48,135 bases of DNA from a virus, in the IMG/VR virus record IMGVR_UViG_3300042559_001106, positions 1 to 48,135 of that record; one strand, given 5' to 3'. Below, piece by piece: positions 15,829-19,403 of the stretch. The position numbers were made by a program, and so were the translations under genes. The notes beneath the pieces are model-generated. The model was not told the origin of the DNA. It saw only the letters and a program-made list of their open reading frames with translations, and did no database searches. Every line of letters begins with the position of its first letter. The stretch's first letter is position 1.

Positions 15829-16245
15829 TTAGTTCTGGAAGCGCAGCGGCGAGGTGAAGTTCACCGTGAACGTGCCGTTCGTGCTCGACACGTTGGCGCC
15901 GAAATCGCCGTAGCACACGAGTTCGTCGGCCGTCGCCGCACCGCCGCGCCGCTTGTAGACCACGACGCCGCGCGCCGTGAGCGTCGAGTTCGGCCATGAC
16001 GGGTTCGAGAACGCGATGTCGAGCCGGTCGTTCGGGAGGTCTTTCGTGACGGTCGCCGTAACCGCAGTGCCGCCGGCGGTGTAGCCCGTGCCGGTGACTT
16101 CGTTGGTCACGTCGCTGCGCTTGAGGTGCGTGTCCTTGTTCGCGACGTAGGTCGACGTTACGAGCATGGCGAAAAAGGTGTCGGTGTCGAAGTCGATGGC
16201 GCCCCGCGCCAAGTCTTCGAGAGCACTGTTGTAGACGATGGTCAT
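15829..16245 (-). CDS. Putative virion structural protein (138 aa)
   Basis: The opening MTIVYNSALEDLARGAIDF, then FFAMLVTSTYVANKDTHLKR and TGTGYTAGG, is a pattern I have seen in short phage structural proteins near tail-fibre genes. The remainder is beta-rich (ARGVVVYKRRGG, GTFTVNFTSPLRFQN). A candidate promoter with TAGACA and TATAAC lies 29-57 nt upstream. Confidence 0.7.
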   Translation of the reverse strand: MTIVYNSALEDLARGAIDFDTDTFFAMLVTSTYVANKDTHLKRSDVTNEVTGTGYTAGGTAVTATVTKDLPNDRLDIAFSNPSWPNSTLTARGVVVYKRRGGAATADELVCYGDFGANVSSTNGTFTVNFTSPLRFQN

Positions 16246-16273
16246 GGGGCGGGCCTCGTGGGGTTGCGGCGCT

Positions 16274-16302
16274 GTTATAGGAGCCTGTGGTTGAGGTGTC
16301 TA
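16274..16302 (-). promoter_or_regulatory. Candidate late promoter (TAGACA-17-TATAAC)
   Basis: On the minus strand TAGACA (5/6 match to TTGACA) and TATAAC (5/6 match to TATAAT) are separated by exactly 17 bp. The minus-35 overlaps the stop of the phosphoesterase gene, and the minus-10 is preceded by GGCTCC, as in the candidate at 39737. It faces the 15829-16245 gene. Confidence 0.6.
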
Positions 16303-18384
16303 CTTGCGCTTGGCGCGGAGGAACTTGAGAAATTCGACGCCCAAATCGAAGTCGTGGAAGACTTGGATAAACGCCGCGTCGTTTTTGGCGTGCGGATCGA
16401 CGACGATCATTGCGCCTGGAGAAATCGCCTGATCGCGGAAGCCTTTTTCTCGCGCATAACGGTCGTAGATTTTGTAGCTCGCGACCTGTAGGCAGTGCAT
16501 GATCTTCTTTGTTTCCGGGCACTTGAGCGGCTGGTATCCGGTAGTGTGTTTGTGCCCGCAGACCAGCACGTCGTCGCGAACGCCGAGTTGGGCGGCCTTC
16601 ATGACGGCGTGCGTCGGGTTCCACTGCGAGTTGCCGGCGAAGTCGTGGCGGGCGTTGATGGTGAAAGCCCGGCCCTGCGGCGGCTTGACCTCGATGCGCG
16701 CCTCGCTGGCCTCGTACAGCGTGTTCTGCTCGCGGCTGATCCAGATGAGCGGGTCGCCCGAACCACTCCAGCAGTTGCCGGTGATGTGCGGCTTGCCGTT
16801 CCGGCGAACCATGAAGTTGCCGAAGGGCACCGTGAGACACCACACGCGCTCGTCCGGCTCTTCCTCGCGAACGACCACAGCCCGGTCGAACTCGCAGAAG
16901 GTGGCGCGAGTCAGGTTCAGGCGGTAGTCCTTCTCGCGGGCAACCGACAGGAAAGCCCGCCAGCCGTGCTGGAGCGCGACGATCTGCACCGACTCCAGGA
17001 ACTCCTTCGTGCCGTGGAGAACGGCGCAGTTGCCGTCCTCGACGCCATCCCAGGTTCCGTCGCCGGCGATCAGTCCTTCGAGAAGAACCTCGAACTGGTG
17101 ATCCGTCATGCGGTCGCACCAGAACGGCAGGCGGCCCTTCTCTGGAACCCACCCGAGAAGCTCGCGCGTGGCCTCCGCAGTCAGCCGGAACTCGCGCTGC
17201 GGGAGTGGCGGCTTCTTGAGTTCGCGACCGCAAACGTGCGTGATGTCCCGCTCGCGCACGCTCTCGCGATATTCCAGGCCGCAGGCGTCCAGAAGCTCGC
17301 GGATGCGCGTCGGGTCTTTGCTCTGGTAGATCGAAGCGCGCGACTCGTCCGGGTTGATGTAGCCGTCCGTCAGGAACCAGCCCGCAAGCTCGATCTGTGC
17401 GTCGCTCAGGGTCGTGCCGGTGTTCTGCACGAAGCCCGAGACCGGGATGCGGAAGCGGGCCGGCAGGCTGTCGGCACGGGCGTACTCGTACTTTGGCGCC
17501 CAGATGCGCTTCCAGTCGCGGCGCGAGTGGAGGACGCGGTGCCCCGCGGTGACGCGCATGTCGACTGCGCGGTCAATGCGGATCATCTTCTCGTCGTTCT
17601 CGCGGTCGAACTTCTTGAGGATCGGTTGCCACTCAAGATTTCCGGTCAAACGATTCATGCCGAGTACGAGATCGTCGCCTCGGATTTCCTCGTACTTGAT
17701 CCAGCCGCGCCGGGTGAGCGCCTCGGTTTTCATGTCGAGGCAGTCGTGGTTGCCTCCGATCATGAACATCCACTTGTCGCCGACGAGTCGGACGAACCAC
17801 TCGACCAACTGCCATGCTTCTTTCGCACTCGTTCCCTGCTCGCCATACAGACGAGCCAAACGACCCACCCAATTGTTCGAGGAGTCGCCCAAATTAGCGC
17901 CGTACAAACCTTCCGTCTGGTTTACCGTCTTCGCGTGGTACTCCAGAGCTTCCAAGTCCGTACCGTCATCATCGACGTGTGGGTCTCCGAAGAACCAGAT
18001 CGCGAACGGGCCTTCGATCGGCACACCAATCGGAATCTTGCGCCGGCAGTCCTCAGCCTCCTTCTTGCGCTGGAAGCGGCGCTTCCGCAGCGCCACCAGT
18101 TCCTCCAGCGTGTAGCCGTCGTCGGCCAGCACAGGAACGCTCAGGCGGCGTTCTGCGGCCTTCTGGACGTGCTTCGGCACGATCGCTTCGACCTTGATGC
18201 CGAGGCGCTCACAGGCCCGGCTGCGCCGCCCTTGGAGCACGCGGACGCTGGCGAAGCCGAAGTGCTTCGCCACCTCCGGCAGCGTCTTGCCCTGCTTCAC
18301 GAGCTTCTCGTACTCGGCAAGGAATTTCTTGTCGCGCTCGGTGGCCTCGGCCTTGAGCCGATCCTGGTGCGTCGTCTTCGTCAT
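16300..18384 (-). CDS. Calcineurin-like metallophosphoesterase interrupted by an intein (694 aa precursor, 371 aa spliced)
   Basis: A phosphoesterase with a dinuclear metal site: motif FGDPHVDD (residues 132-139), LGDSSNN (165-171), GGNHD (210-214), NARHDF (577-582) and VCGHKH (608-613). All metal ligands are present. An intein (residues 215-537) interrupts the protein directly after the Asp of GNHD; after splicing GGNHD joins CWSGSGDPLIW. The N-terminal ~115 residues are basic and contain an HTH-like unit (LPEVAKHFGFASVRVLQGRR), so DNA or RNA may be the substrate. It sits between lysis and virion genes. Substrate is unknown. Confidence 0.9.
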   Translation of the reverse strand: MTKTTHQDRLKAEATERDKKFLAEYEKLVKQGKTLPEVAKHFGFASVRVLQGRRSRACERLGIKVEAIVPKHVQKAAERRLSVPVLADDGYTLEELVALRKRRFQRKKEAEDCRRKIPIGVPIEGPFAIWFFGDPHVDDDGTDLEALEYHAKTVNQTEGLYGANLGDSSNNWVGRLARLYGEQGTSAKEAWQLVEWFVRLVGDKWMFMIGGNHDCLDMKTEALTRRGWIKYEEIRGDDLVLGMNRLTGNLEWQPILKKFDRENDEKMIRIDRAVDMRVTAGHRVLHSRRDWKRIWAPKYEYARADSLPARFRIPVSGFVQNTGTTLSDAQIELAGWFLTDGYINPDESRASIYQSKDPTRIRELLDACGLEYRESVRERDITHVCGRELKKPPLPQREFRLTAEATRELLGWVPEKGRLPFWCDRMTDHQFEVLLEGLIAGDGTWDGVEDGNCAVLHGTKEFLESVQIVALQHGWRAFLSVAREKDYRLNLTRATFCEFDRAVVVREEEPDERVWCLTVPFGNFMVRRNGKPHITGNCWSGSGDPLIWISREQNTLYEASEARIEVKPPQGRAFTINARHDFAGNSQWNPTHAVMKAAQLGVRDDVLVCGHKHTTGYQPLKCPETKKIMHCLQVASYKIYDRYAREKGFRDQAISPGAMIVVDPHAKNDAAFIQVFHDFDLGVEFLKFLRAKRK
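16774..17742 (-). mobile_element. Intein with LAGLIDADG endonuclease in the phosphoesterase (323 aa)
   Basis: The element begins at Cys215 (CLDMKTEALTRRGW), has block B VTAGH (TxxH, residues 279-282) and ends HITGN with Cys538 as the +1 residue. It is therefore a class 1-type intein with a Gly in place of the usual penultimate His. Two LAGLIDADG-like motifs, LAGWFLTDG (333-341) and LEGLIAGDG (435-443), predict a homing endonuclease. Boundaries follow from the motifs and from restoring the GNHD region of the host protein. Confidence 0.9.
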
Positions 18385-18390
18385 GGGGTC

Positions 18391-19008
18391 TTAGCGGAGG
18401 TGGGAGAGGGCGCGCTTGAACCGCGCGACGCGATCGGTCTGCCCGTGCAGCCCGCCGTTGATGATGCGGGTGGTCTGCTCGAACTGGCCGGCGTCAGCGA
18501 AGCGGTTGAGGCCGCGGGCGTTCCAGAAGGCGCCGGCGGACAGGGCTGCGTTCTGCGGCAGCGTCAGGAGTTCGGGCTGGCCGACCAGCGGCAGCACCAA
18601 GAGGTGCGCCATCTCGGCGTAGTTCACCTTGCCGGTGACTTGGATCAAGCCTCGGCCGCGGTAGCGCCAGCCTTCGCCACTCTGCTCGTTGCCGTTGCCG
18701 AGGCGGTTCGCGTAGACGCGGGCGCCGATCCACTCCGGCTTGCCGGCGTACTTGGCCGCCATGTCGAGCGAGGGGAAGTGGCGCGGGAAAATCTGCTGGA
18801 GCCGCGCCGGCGTCGTGTAGTTCAGGTTCTCTTCGACGCGCGCCAGGCTCGCGCTCTCGTGGCCGATCTGCGCCAGCCACATCGCGGCGCGCGTGTGCGT
18901 GTTGATCTCGTAGCGCGCGATCGTGGTGTTGATGACGCCGACCCACTCGGCGGCCCGCTGCAACGGGCAGGCCATGATGGCGGCGAGTTGCTCGGGCGAA
19001 AGGATCAT
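18391..19008 (-). CDS. Endolysin, glycoside hydrolase family 19 (205 aa)
   Basis: It degrades peptidoglycan. GHES (residues 49-52) and VEENLNYT hold the expected catalytic Glu pair, and YRGRGLIQVTGKVNY is the conserved GH19 core seen in phage lysozymes. No signal peptide or SAR domain is present, so export depends on a holin. The start overlaps the stop of the holin candidate (ATGA). Length is typical for single-domain GH19 endolysins. Confidence 0.93.
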   Translation of the reverse strand: MILSPEQLAAIMACPLQRAAEWVGVINTTIARYEINTHTRAAMWLAQIGHESASLARVEENLNYTTPARLQQIFPRHFPSLDMAAKYAGKPEWIGARVYANRLGNGNEQSGEGWRYRGRGLIQVTGKVNYAEMAHLLVLPLVGQPELLTLPQNAALSAGAFWNARGLNRFADAGQFEQTTRIINGGLHGQTDRVARFKRALSHLR

Positions 19009-19403
19009 TCGTGGGTATCCTCGGCGGGGACTTCGATCCGGTGGTGCTTCATCACTGCCACGAGAACGGCGATGCGCTGGCGGAGCTTCGAGACCTTTTC
19101 CTCGGCCTCGAACCGCGCGGTGGTCTCTTTGTTGAGCCGCCCTTCGAGGTCAGCCTGGCGCCCTTCGAGGGCGACGATTCGTTCGTTCAAGTGGGCGATC
19201 AATTGCGTCGTACTATCGGCGGCGGCGACCAGCGTGTTCTCTTGCGCGCGGTTCGACCGGCGGTTGAGGAACCAGTCGATCGCTTTCATCACCATCACGC
19301 CACCGAGGACGCTGGCGCCCATCCAAGCCGGCGCGGGGACGGAAGAGATCATCTGGCCGGCGTAGGGGTCGGTCGGAAGCATCAGGGTTTTCCCGAGGGT
19401 CAA
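19005..19403 (-). CDS. Putative holin / lysis membrane protein (132 aa)
   Basis: One transmembrane helix (PAWMGASVLGGVMVMKAIDW) is followed by a long coiled coil (LIAHLNERIVALEGRQADLE and beyond) with a basic tail. The start is uncertain: TTG at 19403 or ATG at 19382 (125 aa). It directly precedes and overlaps the endolysin, the usual place for a holin. A single-helix holin with a cytoplasmic coiled coil is plausible; a lysis regulator is the alternative. A candidate promoter lies just upstream. Confidence 0.65.
   Translation of the reverse strand: MTLGKTLMLPTDPYAGQMISSVPAPAWMGASVLGGVMVMKAIDWFLNRRSNRAQENTLVAAADSTTQLIAHLNERIVALEGRQADLEGRLNKETTARFEAEEKVSKLRQRIAVLVAVMKHHRIEVPAEDTHE

Follow-up and report, generated by a model that had tools for sequence, protein, structure and literature searches.

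The literature examples that we found of an intein targeting the GNHD metal motif are mycobacteriophage recombination directionality factor (RDF) proteins only. The intein of gp51, the RDF of the cluster A1 mycobacteriophages as represented by Bethlehem and a putative metallophosphoesterase, belongs to class 1, has a penultimate Gly and splices fast and completely (PMC5050341). Gly, Lys and Ser are known in place of the penultimate His in class 1 phage inteins, and Bethlehem carries the class 3 intein TerL1-c alongside its class 1 RDF intein, class 3 inteins being those with no Cys1 nucleophile (PMC5050341).

Here we describe an intein in a 48,135-nucleotide viral stretch (IMG/VR record IMGVR_UViG_3300042559_001106), referred to as the window. 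With a probability of about 0.93, we consider the gene that carries it to encode an inteinized phage calcineurin-like phosphoesterase, whose 694-aa precursor would be spliced to a 371-aa enzyme, and the intein to be a homing one; we infer splicing, cutting, homing and phosphoesterase activity from the sequence.

The RDF inteins of the mycobacteriophages Corvo (L006), LilBib (L016) and Pepe (L019) resemble the window intein in their position right after GNHD, their Cys1, a VWCL block F, a TGN end with penultimate Gly and a LAGLIDADG endonuclease, and they are similar to it over the full length, with 32–33% identity. On the other hand, they have Ser at +1 where the window intein has Cys, BLAST aligned their exteins with that of the window over 17 residues only (E 1.3), which is no useful similarity, and their hosts are mycobacterial. 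Compared through these three phages, the window intein and the Bethlehem RDF intein very likely belong to the same family, judging by extein type, site and ending. This kind of intein is already known from mycobacteriophages and the window phage is new; what deserves attention is that such inteins are spread over phosphoesterases unrelated to one another, together with the association between residues F:4 and G:6. The Bethlehem residue R157, at which mutation kills the endonuclease, could not be used to assess endonuclease activity, as its positional match in the window intein is Ser.

The public records of L016, H70, H49 and other mycobacteriophages label such proteins either as "phosphoesterase + HNH endonuclease" or as "LAGLIDADG endonuclease". 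The HNH label on these intein-bearing phosphoesterases looks wrong, since the relatives that we read carry LAGLIDADG-type inteins.

Anatomy and predicted fold of the intein

The intein lies in frame at residues 215–537 of the precursor, flanked by Asp214 and Cys538 (Table 1). The original prediction had placed it directly after the GNHD motif, and its ends, coordinates and position proved exact to the base by ORF reading and homologue alignment. The class 1 signature that it had named (Cys1 and TxxH) is likewise there, without Trp at B:12, and the class 1 residues C1, T65, H68, N323 and Cys+1 are all present; the penultimate His, usual in class 1 and not obligatory, is replaced by Gly322. Similarity to LAGLIDADG endonucleases, also predicted, was found in both motifs and in an I-DmoI-type fold match. 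Two such motifs with their acidic residues and a matching fold are what a homing endonuclease is expected to have, and both aspartates (Asp126 and Asp228) are invariant across six same-site relatives. In Pfam and NCBIfam the intein stayed below threshold, with LAGLIDADG_3 reaching E 0.005, and Pfam by itself would have overlooked it.

Table 1. Features of the phosphoesterase gene and of the second intein of the genome (window positions; residue numbers within the intein count from Cys1)
Feature	Position	Strand	Evidence or remark
Phosphoesterase ORF, 694 aa	16300..18384	-	single open frame, no frame break
N-extein, residues 1-214	17743..18384	-	motifs GDPH, GD..NN, GGNHD; phrog_7339 match and alignment of intein-free homologues
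GGNHD motif, intein directly after its Asp	17743..17757	-	every homologue aligned across this site keeps GNH
Intein, 323 aa, Cys1 to Asn323	16774..17742	-	class 1 signature, LAGLIDADG endonuclease
Block B TAGH (65-68; T65, H68); B:12 is Val70, not Trp	17539..17550	-	sequence; T65, H68 and R69 invariant
LAGLIDADG motif 1 LAGWFLTDG (119-127), Asp126	17362..17388	-	Asp126 invariant (A2 alignment); weak PF14528 match; I-DmoI fold match
LAGLIDADG motif 2 LLEGLIAGDG (220-229), Asp228	17056..17085	-	Asp228 and Gly229 invariant (A2 alignment)
Block F VWCLTVPFGNFMVRRNG (300-316); F:4 is Cys302; F:13 is Gly, not the usual His	16795..16845	-	sequence, alignment of relatives
Block G KPHITGN (ITGN, 320-323), then Cys+1; penultimate Gly322, terminal Asn323	16774..16794	-	sequence, alignment of relatives
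C-extein, residues 538-694, starting Cys+1-Trp; motifs NARHD and GHKH	16303..16773	-	phrog_7339 match, homologue alignment
TerL (gpA-like) intein, 344 aa	41531..42562	-	in Walker A, AQCGK / A...THN / T; WCT signature

The AF2 model of the intein, built with six same-site sequences, reached a pLDDT of 91.3 and a pTM of 0.89. Its top PDB matches were full-length endonuclease-bearing inteins, with TliVMA (7qsu) at Z 23.7 over residues 1–323, followed by PI-PfuI (1dq3, Z 21.6) and PI-SceI (1vde, Z about 21); further down the list, the splicing part matched HINT mini-inteins and residues 110–283 matched I-DmoI. Both termini of the model aligned to solved inteins, as in a HINT fold whose ends are brought together. 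The VMA-type endonuclease inteins share the overall fold over residues 1–323 (Z 20–24), whereas their sequence identity to the window intein is 14–17% and their host proteins are different. By its residues and predicted fold, the 323-aa segment is confirmed as an intein of class 1 with a penultimate Gly and a LAGLIDADG endonuclease, inserted at the GNHD motif of a putative phage phosphoesterase. The intein is real and is probably active, with predicted splicing, nuclease and homing activities.

Intein-free homologues and the predicted spliced enzyme

Intein-free homologues are 37–56% identical to the window extein and continuous across the insertion site. In five of them (two from Pseudomonas phages and three from IMG/VR contigs, L001–L003) the alignment gap falls exactly at residues 215–537, and homologues from bacterial genomes (L042–L047, including Cupriavidus, Acidocella and Falsiroseomonas) likewise lack the segment. 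The empty site reads GGNHD-AWSGAGDPL or GNHD-LWSG, and in all intein-free homologues but one (L046, below) the residue after GNHD is Ala, Leu or Phe. The comparison agrees with the predicted joint GGNHD-CWSGSG, and in none of these homologues is the inserted segment a normal domain of the phosphoesterase. The predicted 371-aa product is also exact by sequence: the joined exteins gave one continuous phrog_7339 match (E 2.8e-48 over 239 residues), while that of the 694-aa precursor was split in two stretches (E 1.8e-43). In a contig of Falsiroseomonas tokyonensis (L046), the intein-free homologue already has Cys after GGNHD (GGNHDCWSGAADP) and represents a ready-made empty site.

The spliced extein has the motifs GDPH, GDSSNN, GGNHD, NARHD and GHKH in calcineurin-like order, and they are kept in homologues. 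Since GDPH, GD..NN and GNHD precede the intein and NARHD and GHKH follow it, the motifs of the metal site would be covalently joined only after splicing, as had been proposed. The extein matched Pfam Metallophos weakly (E 0.029, below the cut-off), a PDB sequence search with it returned no match, and its fold prediction gave a poor model (pLDDT 45). Both the phosphoesterase identity and the metal-site role of GNHD are putative, based on the motif pattern and the weak Pfam match.

The phrog_7339 proteins of Pseudomonas phages FBPa42 (L004) and IME307 (L005), annotated as "DNA repair exonuclease", are 56% identical to the spliced extein and have no intein, with Ala after GGNHD where the window has its intein. 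Their genes lie in an early-gene region close to a Q-like antitermination gene, unlike the setting in the window (15829–19403), where the phosphoesterase gene adjoins an endolysin and a phrog_644 protein. A 956-aa open frame (16495–19365, plus strand) runs antisense to the phosphoesterase, the endolysin and the next gene at a G+C content of 64%, and it is probably a high-G+C artefact rather than a gene.

In the mechanism that we propose, the gene would be translated as a single 694-aa precursor, in which the intein would fold into a HINT domain with a nested LAGLIDADG endonuclease. Cys1 would attack the Asp214–Cys215 bond, the chain would be transferred to Cys538 (+1), and Asn537 would then cyclise, with Gly replacing the usual penultimate His. 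Joining of the exteins would yield the 371-aa enzyme and unite the two halves of its metal site, GDPH/GD/GNHD and RHD/GHKH. In inteins generally, Asp at −1 favours N-terminal cleavage, and part of the precursor may for this reason be cleaved and not spliced. The endonuclease would cut intein-free alleles at the GNHD codons, and the intein would be copied in, bringing along the +1 Cys (or Ser); empty alleles were identified in L043, L004 and L046.

Occupation of the GNHD motif in other phages

Searching annotated phages by tblastn, we found relatives of the window intein in 211 records, nearly all of them full-length; those in mycobacteriophage phosphoesterase/RDF genes sit right after GNHD (32–33% identity, as above), and others were found in RNR, portal, ThyX and methylase. 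Further same-site loci were collected with the DNA pattern GNHDC...T(R/S)xG (GNHD, Cys and block A) and an alignment query. Scanning viral_contigs with the window intein or the N-extein singly, which has only close relatives within reach, gave no match. The pattern match L023 was rejected as not being an intein, and L031 is a truncated locus.

The same GNH motif was occupied in the 12 loci analysed, with full-length intein identities from 52% down to 20%, and because homologous inteins sit at the same motif, the insertion is not due to chance. Six of the exteins are related to that of the window (L050, L051, L052, L053, L055 and L057), two are RDF-like proteins (L060 and L072), two belong to a further family (L056 and L076), one is a GNHG variant (L058) and one is an SbcD-like protein (L030). 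For exteins outside the window group, BLAST showed no meaningful similarity to that of the window, yet their inteins were still 20–38% identical to the window's. What is new is that, as read from these sequences, several phosphoesterase families without relation to one another have the GNHD site occupied, in one case by a mini-intein of 159 aa. The motif is a recurrent intein target across such families, as Walker A is for ATPases.

The mini-intein (L076:3001-3477, IMG/VR 3300044960_000205) lies at the GNHD site of a further phosphoesterase family and keeps a piece of LAGLIDADG motif 1 (DQIALAGWVRVD); it is read as a natural endonuclease loss at this site. In another phage, IMG/VR contig 3300037541_000250 (L020/L050), a member of the same extein family (54% identical) has an intein at the same site, with Cys+1, 52% identity to the window intein and an end that reads HFSGN.

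The intein tree places the GNH-site inteins in one group, with the exception of the long-branched L030, and the branch of just these eleven, without L030, had a support of 82/65, which is not firm. Among the window-extein relatives, the extein tree shows carriers scattered among non-carriers, with 6 changes for 7 intein rows. The exteins of L050 and L043 are 76% identical, and L050 has the intein and Cys+1, whereas L043 has no intein and a Leu there. Such scatter and near-pairs are the pattern that would be expected of an element whose homing target is the DNA coding for a conserved motif, and near-pairs that differ in having the intein offer a direct way to test homing. An incongruence between intein and extein for L057, within the main extein family, was suggested by identities (35% vs 49%) and was not retained, as agreement was not rejected by AU testing of the intein tree (p 0.10).

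Penultimate Gly, block F and the class of the two inteins

The TGN end in place of HN, which the original prediction had pointed out as a departure, is present (Gly322) but is not odd, as Gly occupies this position in 25 of the 26 sampled clade relatives and splicing is fast in Bethlehem (PMC5050341). All 26 have Cys at F:4, in a sample partly picked by the VWCL block-F pattern; in clade sets picked without that pattern, every complete member has both F:4 Cys and the penultimate Gly. Among IMG/VR viral inteins with F:13 His (L093–L292), a penultimate Gly was found in 12 of 60 with F:4 Cys vs none of 70 with F:4 Asp among the matches listed (Fisher p 5e-5), these inteins being picked by a block-F pattern, with ends assigned by rule and rows related by descent. 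That the penultimate Gly goes with F:4 Cys in viral inteins is a new observation, to be taken as a lead, and it offers a concrete mutational handle on splicing without the penultimate His. Perhaps, although we find it rather doubtful, the window intein belongs to a widespread phage intein lineage that is a distinct catalytic variant, in which F:4 Cys does the work of the penultimate His and G:6 Gly is tolerated or required, and which is part-specialised for homing into GNHD of unrelated phosphoesterases. A His at G:3 standing in for the penultimate His was dropped as an explanation, since some same-site relatives have Met, Phe or Tyr there.

The block-F Cys could also point to a class 3-like or hybrid splicing route, with Cys302 (F:4) as a nucleophile besides Cys1. 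It would suit this route that each of the 26 examined relatives, a set partly selected for it, has F:4 Cys and that the window intein and some relatives have G:5 Thr, and Tori and Perler in 2011 reportedly described inteins with Cys1 or Ser1 that also carry WCT and splice by the class 3 route. Yet the defining Trp B:12 is absent (Val70 in the window intein, and V, I or M in other same-site inteins), G:5 varies among relatives (T, S, H, C, A) while Cys1 is constant, and Cys is generally the second commonest residue at F:4, after Asp (PMC4031507), all of which makes the route unlikely. Class 3 membership itself was rejected: the window phosphoesterase intein has F:4 Cys and G:5 Thr in common with WCT inteins of class 3 (the second intein of this genome, in TerL, as well as MchDnaB1 and Bethlehem TerL1-c), but unlike them it keeps Cys1 and has no Trp B:12.

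It is even less probable that the intein is degenerate or slow, with residues kept by descent only and little mature phosphoesterase made. Both usual C-terminal helpers, G6 His and F13 His, are missing, and the same-site relative L076 is without an endonuclease, as might be expected of decay; against this, splicing goes to completion in the studied relative that shares this Gly (PMC5050341), and the ORF, the catalytic and LAGLIDADG residues and the extein motifs are all intact. That residues 215–537 are an ordinary inserted domain, which stays in the mature protein, is hardly credible, as the uninterrupted frame and nothing beyond it speaks for this, whereas the HINT and LAGLIDADG fold, the exact absence of the segment from homologues and the occurrence of this element at the corresponding motif of unrelated phosphoesterases, and in RNR, portal, ThyX and methylase, all speak against it. 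A class 1 homing intein is the reading that we prefer.

The second intein of the genome is in TerL, between Lys and Thr of Walker A, and its Ala1, HKW, VRC and PTHN place it in class 3. The prediction that the genome holds two inteins of different mechanistic class, both in active-site motifs, stands, with Ala1 and WCT in Walker A of TerL and the other intein at GNHD. It had also called this combination uncommon; both classes do occur together here, but not uniquely, as they do in two mycobacteriophage records and in Bethlehem (PMC5050341). These two records (G013 and G020) were the ones with full-length relatives of the TerL intein among the 25 contigs with a GNH-site intein, in a search whose reach was relatives of the window TerL intein alone, and the class 3 residues are present in their TerL inteins (L090 and L091). 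Across 533 phage records, relatives of the TerL intein were found in proteins that include terminases, exonucleases, helicases and the DarB-like type.
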